Positions 28,689 to 38,514 of a DNA stretch of 59,893 nt are shown piece by piece. The translations under genes and the position numbers were made by a program. The DNA is from Flavobacteriales bacterium (GTDB lineage: Bacteria > Bacteroidota > Bacteroidia > Flavobacteriales_D > Crocinitomicaceae): positions 8,020 through 67,912 of the forward strand of contig JADFAL010000020.1 in NCBI GenBank assembly GCA_015665275.1, written 5' to 3'. Position 1 is the stretch's first letter. Each line of letters begins with the position of its first letter. Below the pieces are notes generated by a model that was not told the DNA's origin, ran no database searches, and worked only from the letters and a program-made list of their open reading frames with translations.

Positions 28689-29828
28689 TTATTCCATTAA
28701 ATGTGCAAGTTGTTTTCCAACAAGTGAACCGATGGCAACGCCCATTCCTCCCAGTCGAACGCCACAATATAGATTTGGTTGAATTTCCTTTACAATTGGC
28801 TTTTTCGTGGTGCCTACCCCCATAATTCCTGCCCAAGAATGATCAACCGTGAACGGGGTGTTAGGCAGGATAACATCGGACAATAGTTCGAGTAAGGCAT
28901 CTTGAATTTTGTTTGAAATGGCAATGTCCGTTGTCGTTTCCCCTTCAAAGTCAAGATTTCTTCCACCTCCAAGCAAAACTCTCCCATCAATATTTCGGAA
29001 ATAATAATATCCTTTTTGATAATGGAAGGTTCCTTCAAAAGGTAGCATGTCAATTGGGTGCGTTACCAAAACTTGAGCCCTTGCTGGAGCAATGTCGTCT
29101 TCGGGAAGAAATTGTTTGGCAAAGCCATTGGTGCAAATGGCAACTTGAGTCGCTGAAATTTCTCCAAGTTGTGATTCGATAATTACCCGATCACCTTGTG
29201 AATGTATGTTTTTGGCTTCGATTCCAAAAAGAACCGAAATACCTTCGTCTATAACCCGCTGATAATAAACAGCGTTCATTTTTGAAGTATCAATTTGGCC
29301 CTCTAACCGATTTTTGAATCCACCTAAAACGCCTTGGAATCCGAATTTTGAATTGACCCGGTTGTCCCACGAGTACACGTCTTTCTCTCCAGAAATTTTT
29401 TCCAAAGCTTTATTGAACTCGGGTAGATGCTCTAATATTTCCTTTTGAACCTCCGCTTCATCTTCACGAATCAAATCCCACGAACCATTGATCTGAAGGT
29501 CCATGTTCTTTGCGCCAATGATCTCTTCTAAATAGCGCAATCCTTCCAGTCGAAGTGCTACTGTATCCCAAACCGTTGAAGCGTCAAATTGCTGTAAATC
29601 ATCGGCTAACTCAGTCGGGCTTCCGAAACATGTGAATCCGGCATTTTTCGAACTGGCTCCTGAGGGAAGCAGACCACGTTCCAAAATCAACACCTTCGCA
29701 TTTGGATTTGAACGTTTGAAATGCAGTGCTGTACTGTATCCTACAATGCCGGCACCAATAACGATCAAGTCACAAGAATCTATAAAGTGCTTGCGTTCCC
29801 AATAACTGAATGTAGCTCCGTTTAGCAT
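28689..29828 (-). CDS. FAD-dependent amine oxidase-type oxidoreductase (DAO family)
   Basis: 379 residues. The dinucleotide-binding motif is [15 protein letters not shown] (about 22-36) with the acidic end in LILERG, and [10 protein letters not shown] is the DAO-family stretch after it. Further on come [15 protein letters not shown] and [19 protein letters not shown], then [20 protein letters not shown], which binds FAD at the end. DAO enzymes oxidise secondary or primary amines such as sarcosine, glycine or gamma-glutamylputrescine; the substrate is not readable here. It lies just upstream of gcvT on the same strand, which recalls dimethylglycine and sarcosine dehydrogenases, where DAO and GcvT domains are fused. 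Confidence 0.85.
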
Positions 29829-29939
29829 GATTTGAATAGCCCCAAATCGGAACTATTTTCGCATATTTGTTAATTAATTCGATCAAATTTAAACCATTTC
29901 TGTAACTGGTTGTACAGGATTACGTTTAAATAGAGAGGC

Positions 29940-32900
29940 ATGAAATATTTTATACTCGTTTTTGCGTTGCTTACGGCCATTTTTGGATGGTCGCAAGAAC
30001 ACCCTTTTCAATTTAAAGGGAAAATTACCAATCAGGATAATGGAGCAGCGGAAGGCGGAGTAACAATCAGTATAGAGCAAAATGGAGGAAATATCGCTTC
30101 CTCAACATCTGCATCCAATGGAAAATACAATCTCGTAAGTAATATCAATTATAGTACGGCCTTTTTTGTGGTATTCCGAAAGAATGGAATGGTGACCAAA
30201 AAAGTCAAGTTCGATTTCTCAAAAATGAATGAAGAAGATATTCCTCCGGGAGATTATCGACCTGTTGAGAAATTGGATATGGATGTTTTTGCCGAACGTC
30301 CGAATATAAATTTCGACTTCTTGGAATCTGAGCCAGTAGCTAGTTTTGATTGGGACACACGAAATTTTTCACCAAGATTGGACAGCGGAGGGGCTGGAGC
30401 GATGCGTAAGAAGATTTCTGACCTATTAGCGGATGCTGAGAACAAAGAAGCAGAACTTGAAAAGAATTATGCAGATGCCATTGCAAAAGCAGATGCTGCA
30501 TACGATCAAGAAAACTGGGAAGAAGCACTTGGTCACTACGAAGAAGCTTTAGGGTACAAACCGACAGAGAAATATCCGTCGGATCGAATTGTAGAGTTGG
30601 ATGCTTTGATTGCGGCGGCGAAAGAAGATGCTTTGGCACAAGAACAATCCCAAGGAGAATACGATGCATTGATTTCAGCAGCAGATCAATTAAGAGATCA
30701 GGGAGATCTAGAAACAGCTGTGAAACGCTACGAAGAAGCATCAGCCAAACTTCCTTCTGAACAATATCCGAAAGATCAAATTGCAACTTTAGAAGATCAA
30801 ATTGCAGCATTAGCAAAAGAAAAAGAAGCACAAGAGGCATATGATGCTGCCATCAAGCGAGCAGATATTTTTATGGGCCAAGGCAGCTGGAAGGCGGCCC
30901 GTGATGCATATGAAGAGGCTACGGGATTAAAGCCGTCAGAACAATATCCAAAAGACAAACTGGCAGAATTGCAAGAGAAATTGGATGCTGCAGCGGCGGA
31001 AGAAGAGTTAAAGAAACAGTACGAGGAAGCAATTCTTGCGGGTGATGCGGCTTTCGATGCGGAAGATTGGAAGACGGCAAAGGAAAAATACGAAGAAGCA
31101 TTAAGCATTGAATCGGCTTCGTCTTATGCGCAAGGACGATTGGATTTTGTTAACGATAAACTTGCAGATATTATCGCCGCTGAAGAACAGGCAAAGAAAA
31201 TCGAAGAGTTGTTAGCAACCGGACAGCAAAACATCGACGAGAAAAAGTTTGACGATGCCATTGCGAATTACGACGAGGTACTGGCACTAGAGGCTGAAAA
31301 CGAAACTGCCATTGCCAAGAAAGAAGAGGCAGAGAAATTAAAAGCAGATGCCGAGGCAAATGCTGCTGCTGATGAAGAATTCAATGCCTTAGTAGCTGAC
31401 GGCGATGCCGCAGTTGGTGGTGAGAATTACGAAGAGGGTGTTTCGAAATACAAAGAAGCCCTTGCCATTAAAGGCGATACAGAAGTAGAGACAAAACTCG
31501 CGGATGCAGAGGCTAAATTAGAAGCTATAAAGAATGCAGAGGCAGTAAAAGAGCAGTTTGAAGCATTAATTGCAGAAGCTACATCGCTGTTAGAGGCCGA
31601 GAAGCTAGAAGATGCGAAAGCAAAATTTGAAGAAGCAGGAACACTTGATGCATCGAGTGATATTCCACCTACGAAAATTGCTGAGATTGATGCCTTATTA
31701 GCAGATCAAAAAGCTGCAGAAGACAAACAAGCGAATTACGATGCCGCTATTGCCGCAGCAGATGAATTGTTCAACTCTGAGAATTGGTCGGAGTCAAAAG
31801 GGAAATACGAAGAAGCTTTAACTTTCGCGGACGATCCATCTTATGCCAACGGACGCATCGCTGAAATTGATTCTAAAGTTTCCGAAGGTGAAGCTGCGGC
31901 AGAACGGAAGCAGAAATACGAGGAGGCCATTAGTGCAGGTGAAACGGCGGTTGGAGTAGAAGATTACACAACAGCTAAGGCGAAATTCGAAGAGGCATTA
32001 ACTTATACAGATGAGCCCGATTATGCGCAAGGAAAGATTGATGAAATCGATGCGATTTTAGGAGAGCAACTAGAGGTTCTCGCTTTGTTAGAAAAAGGGA
32101 AATCATTGTATGAAGCTGGAAATCTTGAGGATTCCAAAGGAAAGTACGAAGCGGTATTAGCCCTTGAATCCGGAAACGAAATAGCGCAAACGGAGATCGA
32201 TAAAATCAACGCTGAATTAGCCGATCAAAAAGCTGCTGCAGAGAAAGAAGCAGCTTTCTTAAAATTAAAAGAAGACGGTTTCTCATTGGCGGATGAAGAA
32301 AAGTACGGCGAGGCAAAATCGAAATTGAAAGAGGCATTATCGTTGAAAGAAGACAGCGAGATACAAGCGAAGCTAGATGAGATTGAAGCGGCACAAGTAG
32401 ACGCTGCGCTTGCGGAAGAAGTGAACAGCTTGATTATGGACGGAGAAGCATTCTTCGGAGAAGAGAAGTTTGATGATGCCAAAGCAAAGTTCGAAGAAGC
32501 ACTTGCCAAGGACCCAGGAAATTCAGAAGCGCAATCAGGACTGGACAAGACGAACAAAGCCATTGAGGATTTGAATGCATTGGCAGATCAGGAAACGAGA
32601 TTCAACGAATTGAAGACGGAGGGTCTTTCATTGAAAGATCAAGAGAAGTATACGGAGGCAAAATCGAAAATCAACGAGGCGTTAACAATTAAAAGTGATG
32701 CTGAATTAGAGAAAGCCCTTAAGGATATTGCAGCAGCGGAAGCAATTGCAGCGCAACAAAACGAGCAAGATGCGGAATTCAATGCTTTATTGGATGCTGG
32801 GGATGAATTGGTCGACAATGGACAATACGAGGAAGGAATTGATAAGTTCAAAGAAGCAAAAGAGCTTAAGTCGGATTCTAAAATTCCAGACGAGCGCATA

Positions 32901-35696
32901 GCGGATGCAAAAGAGCAAATGAAAGGTGCGGAAGCTCAAGCGAAATTGGACAAAGAATACCAAGCACTGATCGACAAAGGAGATCAATTGGTAGAGGAGA
33001 AGAAATATGTGGAAGCTATTGAGGCTTTTAACGCAGCAGGGGTTATTAAGCCAGAGGCACAAGAGCCAGTGGATAAAGCTTCCAATGCGGAAGAACTTTC
33101 AAGAAACGATCAAAACGATGCCAATAAGGCCATTGAAAAGAACTTGCGCATTGCGGAAGAAAAGATTGAAGGTGGAGATTACGATCGTGGAGGATCCATC
33201 TTGGATCTAACGGAGGGGCTGGTTTCTAGTGCAGAGCACAGAGATCAAATTAAGGAACTTCGTGATCGCATTAAGCTGTATGAAAAGAGAGACTCTGATT
33301 ATGCGAAGCACATGGAGGACGGGCAAAAGTTCTTCGATGATGGTAAGTACGAGAAAGCATTAACAGAGTACAAAGCAGCAAATGTGCTAAACGACCAAGA
33401 GCAAGCTCCAAAAGATAAGATTGAAGAAATCAACGGAATCCTTTCTACTCTCGCTTCATCCAAAGAACGAGAAGCCTTATACCTAGAGTACATGGAGAAA
33501 GGACAGAAGAAGCAGGATGGAAAAGATTTTGAAGCATCGCTATCGGCTTTCCAAAGTGCTCTTTCTGCTAAAGAAAACGATCAGGCTGCACAGGATAAAA
33601 TTGATGAAATTCAACAGATCTTGGATGATATTGCGAATAAGAATGCAGAAGATCTTGCCTTAAGAAACGAGTTTGATGGGATCATTGCCGAGGCGGATGA
33701 TTTATTTGATGCAGATTCTTATTTGGATGCAAAGAACAAATACGAAGAGGCTCTGGCAATTATTTCAACCGACACGTATGCTCAGAATCGTGTAGAGAAA
33801 TGTGTGGAATTGGAAAAGGCACGCGGTATTGTTGAATTCGAGAAGCAATATCAAAAACTACTCAAGGCTGCTGACAACAATTTTGAAGACGAGGATTACG
33901 AAAAGGCGAAAGGTCTCTTTACACGAGCAGTAGGGATGAAAGATACAGACCCCTATCCGAAAAAGAAATTGGCTGAAATCGAAGCAATCTTGAACCCAAA
34001 GAGTGTTGCCTCTGCCAAGCTAAAAGATTTGGGTACACCTATTTCTGGTACATTACTAGACGGTCAAGCCCTATTCGTTCAAGCAGAAGACGAGCGTAAG
34101 AAAATCGAACAGAGCAAAATGCAAGATAAGTTCGATAAATCCAAAGAAGGAATTGATCAGCGTTTGGCTCAAAAGGCTGACGAACGTGATGATGCGCGTC
34201 AGGAGTTAGTAAAAGCGTTAGGCGAAGCTGATGCTTACTCAGAAGGAGCAGTTATGCAACAAAATGAGAACGCTGATATTTTGAAAGAGGCTCAGGAAGA
34301 ATTGAGCGATGTTCGAAACGACGAGTCCAAAATGGATTATAACGTGAATATCAGCGACCAAGAACAATTGAATAACATCATTGATGGCGTTGCGTTGCAG
34401 TACGGAGAAGACCAGAATGTGTATCGAGATAATTCAGAGGCATTATCTACTTATGAAGCAGCGTTAGCTGATGCAATGCGAGAGAATGCAACAAGCGATT
34501 ACGGTGACAACATTACTTCGGATGAGAAGTTAACAGGAGTGAAGAATCAGGTGGTCAGTGAAATGATTGATGATGAACAAGAGCGAGATGGTGTTCGGAA
34601 CGATGTGGTTGAAATTGTCGACGATGTGAACAAAGAAAACGATCAGCGCAACAAAGAAGACTTCGAAACCAACCATACTTCACAGACCGTTATTGATGAG
34701 GTTTACGAAAACGTAGACTACAAGACCGCAGAGGACACTAAAATTTCTGGAGATAACAACGAAGGAATGAAGGTGGTGAATGACGAAATAGCAACTGCGG
34801 ATTACGACCTTGGTTCTTCCGAGTCAGTAGATGTATGGGATGCAAACCTTGCCATCGTTGATATCGAAAAGAAATATTCCACTAAGACGGCGGAAGACGT
34901 TGAAATGGTTTCTCAGAATGGTGAGAAGCTTTACGAATTGGAAAAGGAAGTTCAAGATCGCGCAAAAATGCAAAATGCGGACGAACGCACATTCGCTTTA
35001 CAGGCCGATGCCATGATTGAAGCTTACGAAGAGAAAACACGCTCTGATATGAGTGGCATGGATGACAATCGTATCGAATCTGCTGAGATCTTCAAACAAG
35101 GAGATAAAGAGCTTGCAGATGCTCAGGCGGCGCGGGTAGGTAAAGACAAAGATCAAGCCTACTCCAATAAAGAGATTATCAATACGCAAGTTGTGGTTAA
35201 CAATGACATCAGTGATGAAGACGAGCGTTTGGGGGTTCAGAAGCAACTGGGTAACATTACATTGGAGAACGATGAGAATACTTCGTATACCACTACCAAA
35301 CAAACTAAGAACCAAGAATTGTTGTCTGATTCTAAGCGTGTAACGACTCGGGACAAGCAAGATCGCGACGATGCCAAAAAGGATGAGTTGTACGACAGTG
35401 CTAGTAAGATTAGTAAGATGGACAACTCGCCTGAAAAGAAAGTGAAGGTGGCCAATTCATTGGGCGAAGAATATCCAGAAGGAGTAACAGAAGAGAATTT
35501 CTCCCAAAACGATCAGAATGGTTTGATGACTGCGGTAGTAACGCGCAGGGTTGTGGTAATTGATGGACATGCCGATGTTTATGTAAGAACGCAATCACGA
35601 GGTGCTATCACTTATTCGAAAAACGGAACAGCTGTAACAGAACATGTTTGGAACTCTGAAACGCAAGGTCCTCACCTTGTCAATCACACTAAGTAG
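29940..35696 (+). CDS. Giant secreted protein: regulatory-like beta domain, ~20 TPR-like repeats, charged coil, C-terminal domain
   Basis: 1918 residues, by far the longest gene here. A signal peptide (1-19, ending GWSQ) is followed by a carboxypeptidase-regulatory-like beta domain (about 20-100: [30 protein letters not shown]) and a linker. From about residue 178 to 1352 there are some 19-20 helical repeats of about 55-65 residues, each with a TPR-like core such as [52 protein letters not shown] and [17 protein letters not shown], joined by charged coiled coil. Residues about 1380-1840 are Asp/Glu/Asn/Lys-rich and mostly helical. A distinct end (about 1860-1918) has [17 protein letters not shown] and WNSETQG. 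It is strongly acidic and almost free of Cys and Trp in the repeats. Function unknown; likely periplasmic or surface scaffold. Its end overlaps apbE. Confidence 0.85.
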
Positions 35697-36711
35697 TCTC
35701 ACTCTCATTGTAGGATGTACTTCCACGAACTCGGAAGAAGCCACAAAAGAAGATTGGAATGAAATTCAAGGCAACACCCAAGGAACAACATACGGTGTCA
35801 TCTTAAACGACCCGCAAGGAAAGGTTCAGAAAAAAGCCCTGGATTCTATTTTACATGATTTCGATTTAGCGCTATCAACCTATATCGATTCCTCGTTGAT
35901 TTCTGGTATCAACGACGCATCCATGACCTACATTTTTGATGATGATTTCGGGTATTTTGGTACGTGCTATGAAAAGAGCGCGCAAATTTCCGAGCTAACG
36001 AATGGGGCATTTGATCCAACCGTATTTCCATTGGTGAAAGCATGGGGATTTTTTAAGGAGGAAGCGCCTATTCCAGAGCAAAACGAAATTGATAGCCTGC
36101 TCGAATTTGTTGGGTTCAATAAGGAACTCCATACGTGTATGCTCTCTCCTCCGCGTGTTTCATTCACAAAAAGGAACCCTTCGTTTAAACTTGATTTTAA
36201 CGCAATTGCACAAGGGTATTCAGTAGATATTCTTGCACAATACCTGAATAAAAAAGGAATCAAGAATTATTATCTTGAGATCGGAGGAGAGATTGTTGTC
36301 AAAGGAAAGAACCGTGAAAACAAAAGGTGGCGCATTGGAATCGATTCACCCAAGCAAAAGCAAGGGACGCGCGTGTTAGACAATGTGGTCAATATTTCAA
36401 ATAAGGCCATTGCCACAAGCGGTAACTACCGTAAGTTTTATATCAAAGACGGCGTAAAATACGCGCATACAATCGACCCAAAGACAGGAAAGCCAGTGCA
36501 ACATTCATTATTGAGTGCTACGGTAATCGCAAATTCTTGTGCTGATGCTGATGCCTATGCGACAGCATTTATGGTGATGGGAGTAGAGAAGTCTATGGAA
36601 TTTGTCGAGGCGAACCCGAAGTTGGGATTGGACGTTTACCTTCTTTACGACGACGGAACTGGAGTCATTCAGCGAAAAATGACCCAAGGTTTCGAAAAGT
36701 ATTTGAAATAG
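35644..36711 (+). CDS. apbE: FAD:protein FMN transferase, lipoprotein
   Basis: 355 residues. The ATG at 35644 lies 53 bases inside the end of the giant gene, in another frame, and is supported because it gives a proper lipoprotein signal ([16 protein letters not shown], Cys at about 25). ApbE proteins attach FMN from FAD to Thr or Ser of target proteins such as NqrB/NqrC and RnfG. Family marks are [64 protein letters not shown] and [14 protein letters not shown], with the Mg-binding [14 protein letters not shown] at about 299-312. Likely at the outer face of the inner membrane. No flavinylated substrate is in the window. Confidence 0.93.
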
Positions 36712-36728
36712 GTTTTCCGCATCATACT

Positions 36729-36760
36729 GTGTGAAAGTGTTCGATAGAACTTTCAATCAC
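36729..36760. other. Hairpin between apbE and the four-helix membrane protein
   Basis: TGAAAGT (36732-36738) pairs with ACTTTCA (36749-36755), with one bulged part and outer GTG/CAC. No T-run follows, so it is not a simple terminator; it might be an attenuator or RNA stabiliser in the apbE-mpl transcript. Confidence 0.35.
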
Positions 36761-36796
36761 AAGAGCATTCTGAGTAATTTTCAAGAAACGAAAGGC

Positions 36797-37156
36797 ATGC
36801 GATCTTCTAAATTATTTCATGGTGTACTTCTTTTGAGTCTTATAGCGCTGGCAGTGATGATTGCTCGGTACTATTGGCAAGCAGATGCACTGGATGCCAT
36901 TCGTATGTTACCCAGATACTTGATGTTTTTATTTCTGGGGTACGTACTCTTGCAAATATTGAAGCGATGGTTGTATAAGGATCGCAATTGGTGGGATTGG
37001 ATTTATTACATCGGTTTGGCTTCAGCGATGCTTCCAACCTTTATGGCCTCGGAAGAAAGTGCCCATTTATTCCATTCAATTACCGACTACGGAACCATCT
37101 TTCTCATCATTCCGGTAGTACTAGATTTTTACATATTAATGAAACGAAAAAGATGA
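36797..37156 (+). CDS. Small four-helix membrane protein, unknown function
   Basis: 119 residues from ATG 36797; a GTG 22 codons upstream overlaps the hairpin and gives only polar residues. Four hydrophobic segments: LFHGVLLLSLIALAVMIARY, LMFLFLGYVLLQILKRW, WIYYIGLASAMLPTFMA, DYGTIFLIIPVVLDFYIL. Charged residues face the loops (KDRNWWDW, SEESAHLFHS). No family recognised. The stop overlaps the mpl start by four bases (ATGA), so it is coupled to mpl. Confidence 0.7.
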   Translation: MRSSKLFHGVLLLSLIALAVMIARYYWQADALDAIRMLPRYLMFLFLGYVLLQILKRWLYKDRNWWDWIYYIGLASAMLPTFMASEESAHLFHSITDYGTIFLIIPVVLDFYILMKRKR

Positions 37157-38514
37157 AAGTTCACTTCATAGCTATAGGCGGCAGCGCCATGCACAATCTT
37201 GCAATTGCTCTAAGTAGAAAAGGAATGCAGGTCACAGGTTCCGACGATGAAATCTTTGAGCCTTCGAAATCTCGATTGGCGAAAGAAGGTATTTTACCTG
37301 AAAATATTGGTTGGGACGCTGCTCGAATTACGGATGATTTGGACGCTGTCATTCTTGGGATGCATGCACGCGAGAACAATCCTGAGCTGATTGCGGCGAA
37401 AGAAAAAGATATTCCCGTGTATTCATATCCAGAGTATCTCTACGAGCAAAGCAAGGAAAAAACGAGAGTTGTTATTGGTGGATCTCACGGAAAAACAACC
37501 ATTACCTCTATGATTCTACATATGGTGAATGCTTTGGGACTGAACGTGGATTACATGGTAGGAGCACAATTGGAAGGGTACGACTGTATGGTCAAAATTA
37601 CGCCTGACGCACCCATCATGATCTTAGAAGGAGACGAATACTTGAGTTCTCCTATTGATCGTCGACCTAAGTTTCATTTGTACCAACCGAACATTGCCAT
37701 AATAAGTGGTATTGCATGGGATCATATCAATGTGTTCCCAACCTTTGAGAATTACGTAGAACAGTTCGATATTTTCTGTCAACAGATTCAATCCGATGGT
37801 ACTTTTGTGTACAATTTGGAAGACGAAGAAGTGACGAAATTAGGGGAGAAGTACAAGAGTTCGGTGAATTCTGTTGCGTATAAAACTCCTGATTACGATG
37901 TTACGGATGAAGGAACTGTCGTTCATTTTGACGGCAAAGATTATCCGATGCTGATTTTCGGAGCCCACAACCTACAGAATTTGATGGGAGCCATGCGAAT
38001 TGGTGAGGCAATGGGCATTGCTCCAAATGATTTTCTTACTTCCATGCATTCTTTCACCGGAGCAGGCAAACGCTTGCAAAAGGTAGCGGAATCAAAAGGA
38101 TTTACGATGTACAAGGATTTTGCGCATTCTCCTTCAAAGTTGATGGCAACTACAAAGGCGGTAAAGGAGCAATATCCTGATCGGGAAGTAATTGCTTGTA
38201 TGGAACTACATACATTTTCATCACTGAAAAAAGAATTTTTGCCTGAGTACGATGGAGCAATGAATGCCGCAGACGATGCTTTAGTGTATTTCAGTCCAGA
38301 AGTGGTTGCCCACAAAAAACTGGAGCCAATAACAAAAGATCAGGTTTTTTCCGGATTTGGAGGTAGCGTTAAGGTGGTAAATGAGACAAAAAATGTATTG
38401 GACTTCATCCATTCTCGCGATTGGAACAACAAGGTTCTGCTCATGATGTCGTCGGGTAATTTTGACGGAATTGATTATGAGGCACTCGGTGCGGAAATAG
38501 TGGACAAGCTTTAA
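37153..38514 (+). CDS. mpl: UDP-N-acetylmuramate:L-alanyl-gamma-D-glutamyl-meso-diaminopimelate ligase
   Basis: 453 residues from ATG 37153; the longer open frame would start inside the previous gene. Mpl attaches recycled tripeptide to UDP-MurNAc in the cytoplasm, so this organism recycles peptidoglycan. Seen are the MurC-like start KVHFIAIGGSAMHNLAIAL, GSHGKTTITSMI (ATP P-loop), EGDEYLSSPIDRRPKFHLY, AWDHINVFPTFENYVEQF, and the C-terminal domain with YKDFAHSPSKLMATTKAVK. The order (Mpl not MurC) is supported by the length and by DEYLSSPIDRRPKF. Coupled to the small membrane protein by an ATGA overlap. Confidence 0.93.
   Translation: MKVHFIAIGGSAMHNLAIALSRKGMQVTGSDDEIFEPSKSRLAKEGILPENIGWDAARITDDLDAVILGMHARENNPELIAAKEKDIPVYSYPEYLYEQSKEKTRVVIGGSHGKTTITSMILHMVNALGLNVDYMVGAQLEGYDCMVKITPDAPIMILEGDEYLSSPIDRRPKFHLYQPNIAIISGIAWDHINVFPTFENYVEQFDIFCQQIQSDGTFVYNLEDEEVTKLGEKYKSSVNSVAYKTPDYDVTDEGTVVHFDGKDYPMLIFGAHNLQNLMGAMRIGEAMGIAPNDFLTSMHSFTGAGKRLQKVAESKGFTMYKDFAHSPSKLMATTKAVKEQYPDREVIACMELHTFSSLKKEFLPEYDGAMNAADDALVYFSPEVVAHKKLEPITKDQVFSGFGGSVKVVNETKNVLDFIHSRDWNNKVLLMMSSGNFDGIDYEALGAEIVDKL

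Follow-up and report, generated by a model that had tools for sequence, protein, structure and literature searches.

What does a bacterium do with an exported repeat protein of 1918 residues in which no enzyme can be recognized? The question is raised by a gene in a stretch of 59,893 nucleotides from a Flavobacteriales bacterium of the family Crocinitomicaceae (contig JADFAL010000020.1 of assembly GCA_015665275.1; the whole stretch is referred to here as the window). An earlier sequence-only reading had described the product as a signal peptide, an N-terminal domain, about 20 repeats resembling tetratricopeptide repeats (TPRs), an acidic linker and a separate C-terminal domain, and had proposed a periplasmic or cell-surface scaffold. 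We find that this architecture holds, the match of the N-terminal domain being weak when the window protein is taken alone, and that the last part of the chain (about 70–80 residues; hereafter the C-domain) is a module that occurs more widely, strictly at the C-terminus, and is covered by no curated family. We regard it as quite possible, if slightly short of an even chance, that the window protein belongs to a Bacteroidota family of exported scaffolds or tethers with two binding ends and is its representative in the Crocinitomicaceae. The parts of the gene are as follows (ORF, open reading frame; HMM, hidden Markov model).

29940 to 35696, + strand: gene of the 1918-residue exported TPR protein; ORF open from its ATG
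29940 to 29996, + strand: signal peptide, residues 1–19; boundary set by eye, N-termini being hydrophobic family-wide
29997 to 30419, + strand: CarboxypepD_reg-like N-terminal domain (N-domain), residues about 20–160; from a weak Pfam match and the matches of relatives
30465 to 34028, + strand: 19 scored TPR units of 60 residues, residues 176–1363; from an HMM of the protein's own repeats, Pfam and autocorrelation
33138 to 33296, + strand: degenerate repeat slot within the array, residues 1067–1119; unscored by the repeat HMM
34029 to 35429, + strand: acidic linker, residues 1364–1830; from a weak 54-residue period and from conservation
35454 to 35693, + strand: undescribed C-terminal domain (C-domain), residues 1839–1918; from profile searches and library scans

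The C-domain is widespread, strictly C-terminal and unnamed

Relatives were collected by scanning all genomes with two family-level peptide patterns, and the best 80 of 105 relatives were kept as family loci. Together with 40 class-level loci, 20 order-level loci and the window these make up 141 loci, all of them chosen because they match, with genes called as greedy longest ORFs whose starts are approximate. In all 145 of the gene-called proteins with the domain, the C-domain ends 0–24 residues before the stop; extra internal matches occur in eight of the 145, all at E≥0.4. The source genome (3.64 Mb in 115 contigs, 96% complete) has a single C-domain and, at 100% identity, one copy of ORF 29940–35696. 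Among 49 long family sequences the mean share taken by the commonest residue of a column is 0.72 in the C-domain, as compared with 0.31 in the linker and 0.50 in the last TPR units, and that share reaches 0.7 or more in 46 of the 80 C-domain columns and in 19 of the 467 linker columns. The earlier division into an acidic linker and a separate C-terminal domain is thus borne out.

Within the Crocinitomicaceae the C-terminal region (residues 1721–1918) was found in 92 of 100 genomes, some of these matches being short or cut frames, and in 81 of the 83 genomes of high quality. A cultured relative, Taishania pollutisoli CZZ-1 (locus L094), carries the gene. Across the order, the family profile (A1) finds the C-domain in 242 of 299 genomes, from 59 of 64 genera. 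Across the class sample, a broader profile (A3, built from 25 sequences) finds it in 134 of 296 genomes, from 69 of 166 genera, at 1–8 copies each. In a sample of 296 genomes of the phylum it is present in three, all from the same order, and many well-sampled families lack it. (A match in genome G277 in the first phylum search, at E 3.3e-4, was taken as chance, being absent from the profile-search matches at the same settings.) One single-sequence query each of the phage and plasmid collections gave no match.

Scans of 25 C-domains against Pfam and NCBIfam returned scattered weak matches, the best at E 0.0016 and none shared by more than two of the 25, and among PDB chains the C-domain profile found nothing below E 0.29. 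(A PHROGs match to an unnamed family, at E 0.014, was set aside.) For the window protein as a whole, an NCBIfam scan gave no match near any cut-off (a weak one to the homoaconitase small subunit, at 14.4 bits where the cut-off is 230, was taken as chance), and no enzymatic Pfam family matched at E≤1, in agreement with the earlier statement that there is no catalytic motif. Pfam, NCBIfam and PDB chain searches returned no full-length match to a characterized protein, and the open-licence PMC articles searched contain no description of the protein or of the domain. The word "undescribed", which the sequence-only reading had used, is therefore a fair one for the C-domain and for the architecture as a whole, neither being covered by a curated family in Pfam or NCBIfam. 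What emerges is a clear target: a chain-closing domain in 134 of 296 class genomes, borne by a giant protein in most of one order and unnamed in both libraries.

Constant ends flank a TPR array of variable length

Pfam TPR_2 matches the window protein at 72.4 bits, above its cut-off of 27, as expected of a member of the TPR superfamily. An HMM trained on the repeats of this protein scores 19 units between residues 176 and 1363 at a spacing of about 60 residues, with one slot unscored, and the autocorrelation of the sequence peaks at lag 60 (z 18.8 versus shuffles). The small or aromatic residues at positions 8, 20, 24 and 27, which we take to be diagnostic of TPRs, are present in 19 of 19 units at each position, the background frequency of these residue classes being 0.20–0.29; the proline of position 32 fits five of the 19. 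Moreover, among PDB chains, TPR proteins of designed consensus sequence are matched (best E 1.3e-13) by a profile of the N-terminal 480 residues that was made from 43 family members. These features favour assigning the repeats to the TPR fold over coiled coil, and the earlier count of about 20 is matched by 19 scored units and one degenerate slot. Because the units share 24% identity on average and 47% at most, they are old rather than recently amplified, as had also been proposed. Behind the array the linker has a weak period of a different length, with z 5.1 at lag 54 and z 4.3 at lag 108.

The ends of the chain recur among the relatives. Of the 125 domain proteins with an uncut start, 120 begin with an export-like hydrophobic stretch by a simple heuristic of our own. 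The start resembles a signal peptide in 109, shows just a hydrophobic stretch in 10 and bears a lipobox in one. As judged by eye, the starts of two of the other five (L205, L206) were apparently set too far upstream, and the remaining three (L052, L056, L230) look truncated. The signal peptide of the window protein is of type I and has no lipobox, again by eye. The N-domain is found in 105 of the 125, by a profile that was itself built from family members, so that the independent part of this count is 19 of 20 at the level of the order and 33 of 42 at the level of the class. Of 45 class-level relatives, 29 match Pfam CarboxypepD_reg at E≤0.01. One or more TPR units are scored in 114 of the 125 proteins, and the number of units between the conserved ends ranges from 0 to 25, explaining most of the variation in length (r = 0.85).

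Shorter forms were also seen. The minimal ones, of 243–254 residues (L208:6413-7144 and L257:3174-3938), consist of a signal peptide, one TPR unit and the C-domain. At L207, L218, L222 and L229 short paralogues bearing the same C-domain stand in tandem, as pairs or as a triplet; those at L207, L218 and L222 adjoin a family of membrane proteins of 180–187 residues, which is probably DUF6580 (4 of 126 neighbour proteins). Eight family genes of 678–692 codons (L089, L092, L093, L097, L100, L106, L107 and L112) have two scored TPR units and lack both the N-domain and the upstream element described below.

Constant ends and a freely varying middle are what an exported scaffold or tether that binds two partners would be expected to have. 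The plan is a Sec signal peptide, a CarboxypepD_reg-related domain, a TPR solenoid of 0 to 25 scored units, a linker and the strictly C-terminal domain. The two conserved ends would be binding modules, each docking on a component of the envelope, and the solenoid would serve as an arm of adjustable length that spaces the ends or recruits partners along itself. With less assurance, we would locate the protein either in the periplasm or at the outer membrane, on its inner face; we prefer this placement because no known outer-membrane export signal or lipid signal was found. The "periplasmic or cell-surface scaffold" of the sequence-only reading is plausible.

Several observations weigh against this explanation. 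The N-domain of the window protein itself scores 16.1 bits (E 0.014) with CarboxypepD_reg, under the Pfam cut-off of 32.3. In ten of the 42 relatives at class level not a single TPR unit is scored, and the array is therefore better seen as the variable part of the family and the ends as the constant part. Even relatives of the same genus differ in length: the open frames of seven run from 1360 to 2024 residues (an eighth has no match), which speaks against a strict ruler. Finally, the C-domain is missing from 293 of the 296 genomes of the phylum sample and from 162 of the 296 of the class sample; it is thus no general component of the envelope.

An alternative is a periplasmic chaperone or holdase, in which the TPR units would bind segments of outer-membrane proteins during assembly while the ends dock on the assembly machinery. 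TPR arrays commonly bind peptides, this one is acidic and rich in alanine (25% D+E, 17% A), and the gene is single-copy in most of the family genomes that match. We nevertheless consider a chaperone improbable; among the 25 commonest of the 161 Pfam families found in the 126 neighbour proteins there is none known to belong to outer-membrane assembly.

The C-domain and type IX secretion

A strictly C-terminal domain of about 70 residues on exported proteins is also what might be expected of a sorting or anchoring signal comparable to the C-terminal domains (CTDs) of the type IX secretion system (T9SS). The C-domain would then carry the TPR protein through the outer membrane and anchor it to the surface as a fibre or adhesin. 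SprA, the T9SS translocon, is encoded in 133 of the 134 class genomes that bear the domain (the exception is G659), as would fit such a role. Note, however, that SprA was found in 288 of the 296 class genomes overall, in a search with the same sampling settings as that for the C-domain, so that the co-occurrence is uninformative. Neither the type A model (TIGR04183) nor the type B models (PF13585/TIGR04131) matched the window protein at E≤1, and the protein is not among the listed type A matches of its genome (150 scored of 234 candidates). By these models it is not a T9SS signal of type A or B, though the domain could still act as an address tag. Similarity to the C-terminal domain of ChiA would mark a CTD of type C, a type named in PMC10202324. 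A sorting signal would, moreover, be expected on varied cargo, but among the 25 of 40 Pfam families listed for 45 class-level proteins only CarboxypepD_reg types, TPRs and SdrD_B occur in more than five of the proteins, and copies of the C-domain number just 1–8 per genome. (Odd matches were set aside, for example to Glyoxalase, seen in 5 of 45 relatives.) We hold a surface-sorting signal to be the main rival to the scaffold or tether and, on balance, unlikely.

In the source genome (3.6 Mb) at least 150 type A CTD matches stand beside the one C-domain.

On a bolder and, in our judgement, doubtful reading, the C-domain would be a new C-terminal module that targets or docks proteins in the Bacteroidota envelope. 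It would define an unrecognized system that delivers exported CarboxypepD_reg–TPR solenoids of adjustable length to one common site, with dedicated gene control in the Crocinitomicaceae. If the domain is a docking or sorting module, it would amount to a second C-terminal address in Bacteroidota beside the T9SS signals.

A single-copy element lies upstream of the gene

Immediately before the gene there is a conserved element.

29889 to 29928, + strand: conserved element TTAAACC-N3-TCTGTAAC...GTACAG...CGTTTA; 40 nt, ending 11 nt before the ATG, single genomic copy

In Crocinitomicaceae relatives the 40-nt element likewise lies close to the start codon. An alignment of 46 sequences, namely the window and those 45 of the 53 long family genes with upstream sequence in which the element is visible, has a mean column identity of 74% with invariant TTAAAC, GTA and GTTT cores. 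Despite this near-invariance of the element, the proteins encoded downstream are often only 25–50% alike. A pattern fitted to the element has 45 matches in 2.02 Mb, one per locus. It precedes 44 of the 53 long family genes as well as the window gene, and none of nine short family genes, 20 order-level genes or 42 class-level genes; because the pattern was fitted by eye the count of 44 is partly by construction, but the absence elsewhere is not. In the source genome the element remains single even when three mismatches are allowed over its 25 specified bases.

The leader contains nested inverted repeats. None of the 11 pairs changes on both sides and the covariation score is not above that of shuffles, but with four of the 11 pairs invariant this test neither supports nor excludes RNA pairing; Rfam has no match in the window. 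The leader also has what we take to be a resemblance to a promoter of the extracytoplasmic-function (ECF) type (TGTAAC-N16-CGTT). Such a promoter was rejected because a regulon would be expected, whereas it has one genomic occurrence as compared with four for a backwards control. We infer that the element is a dedicated control site, more likely acting as DNA than as RNA. A gene-specific element of this kind would offer a route to finding its regulator.

These findings also bear on another alternative, in which the protein is simply one more long TPR protein and belongs to no special system. TPR proteins are common, and Pfam finds TPRs and little else in the window protein. Conservation across most of an order, conserved ends and an upstream element specific to the gene are more than a generic repeat protein needs, however, and we judge this explanation very improbable.

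A divergent oxidoreductase gene is the most conserved neighbour

Four genes lie close to the TPR gene.

28689 to 29828, − strand: divergent FAD-dependent oxidoreductase of the DAO family; 111 nt from the TPR gene, a neighbour conserved beyond the order
35644 to 36711, + strand: ORF of the ApbE family (FAD:protein FMN transferase); overlaps the TPR gene by 53 nt
36731 to 37156, + strand: small membrane protein ORF, 141 residues; by position and by eye resembles a family of 95–146 residues (48 family loci)
36988 to 38514, + strand: Mur ligase of the MurC/Mpl type; start uncertain

The DAO oxidoreductase is the most conserved neighbour and recurs beyond the order. It is directly adjacent and divergent at 45 of 59 testable family genes (79 examined, of which 17 were cut and three had too short an upstream sequence), at 11 of the 19 testable genes of the order (20 examined, one too short upstream) and at 6 of 42 class genes (45 examined, three cut), with a gap to the TPR gene of mostly 50–130 nt in the family and the order. 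DAO is, moreover, the commonest Pfam family among the 126 neighbour proteins of class loci (eight proteins). When adjacency was mapped on a C-domain tree of 73 sequences and 72 columns, few for so many rows and with the family thinned by hand to 11, it required 11 changes as compared with 20.3 in shuffles, none of 500 shuffles being as low; adjacency is thus clustered but has been gained or lost repeatedly. Taken together, the conserved divergent DAO gene and the single-copy upstream element suggest that the TPR gene has regulation of its own.

On the other side of the gene, the apbE and mpl partners proposed by the sequence-only reading stand up locally and not beyond. By blastp clustering, uncorrected for contig ends, the 80 family loci include 67 with the Mur ligase, 48 with the small membrane protein and 13 with an apbE-type gene, and the 40 class-level loci include none of the three; there it is DAO that recurs instead. 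As for the Mur ligase, its MurC score exceeds its Mpl score, and both lie under the respective cut-offs. The start of apbE lies inside the end of the TPR gene (overlap 35644–35696), and this overlap may reflect translational coupling.

Might the protein, then, work with these neighbours, as an envelope protein linked to the cell wall or to redox chemistry that acts with DAO and, in Crocinitomicaceae, with ApbE and the Mur ligase? The frequent adjacency of DAO, the presence of a Mur ligase in most family loci and the apbE overlap speak for such a role. The neighbours are, however, general metabolic genes whose old order need not imply a shared function, DAO adjacency has changed often, and the DAO protein matches no NCBIfam model at its cut-off. 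The chance that a partnership of this kind explains the protein is, in our estimate, small.

Comparison with known systems

The scaffold or tether that we favour resembles several known systems in part. Designed consensus TPR proteins match the profile of the N-terminal 480 residues, as described above, but their units are of 34 residues and those of the window protein of 60. The C-domain shares with T9SS CTDs of types A and B a strictly C-terminal position on Sec-exported Bacteroidota proteins and a similar size (TIGR04183 has 72 positions); it differs in that the window protein matches none of their models at E≤1 and in being single in a genome with at least 150 type A matches. PorW/SprE, the TPR lipoprotein of the T9SS (NF052312), is likewise an envelope TPR protein, and its model touches 2 of the 45 class-level relatives, presumably because of their TPRs; the window protein does not match this model at E≤1 and has no lipobox.

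The nearest known analogue is PorE (PG1058), which is described in PMC5053529 as a periplasmic T9SS lipoprotein of Porphyromonas gingivalis with three TPRs, a beta-propeller, a carboxypeptidase-regulatory-like domain, a peptidoglycan-binding OmpA_C domain and a lipoprotein signal. As far as that description goes, the two proteins differ in the order of their domains and in their terminal domain, and the window protein has 19 scored TPR units and lacks a beta-propeller and OmpA_C (Pfam, E≤1) as well as, by eye, a lipoprotein signal. What they share is the combination of an exported TPR protein, a carboxypeptidase-regulatory-like domain (a weak match in the window protein) and a terminal domain that binds the envelope in PorE and may do so in the window protein.

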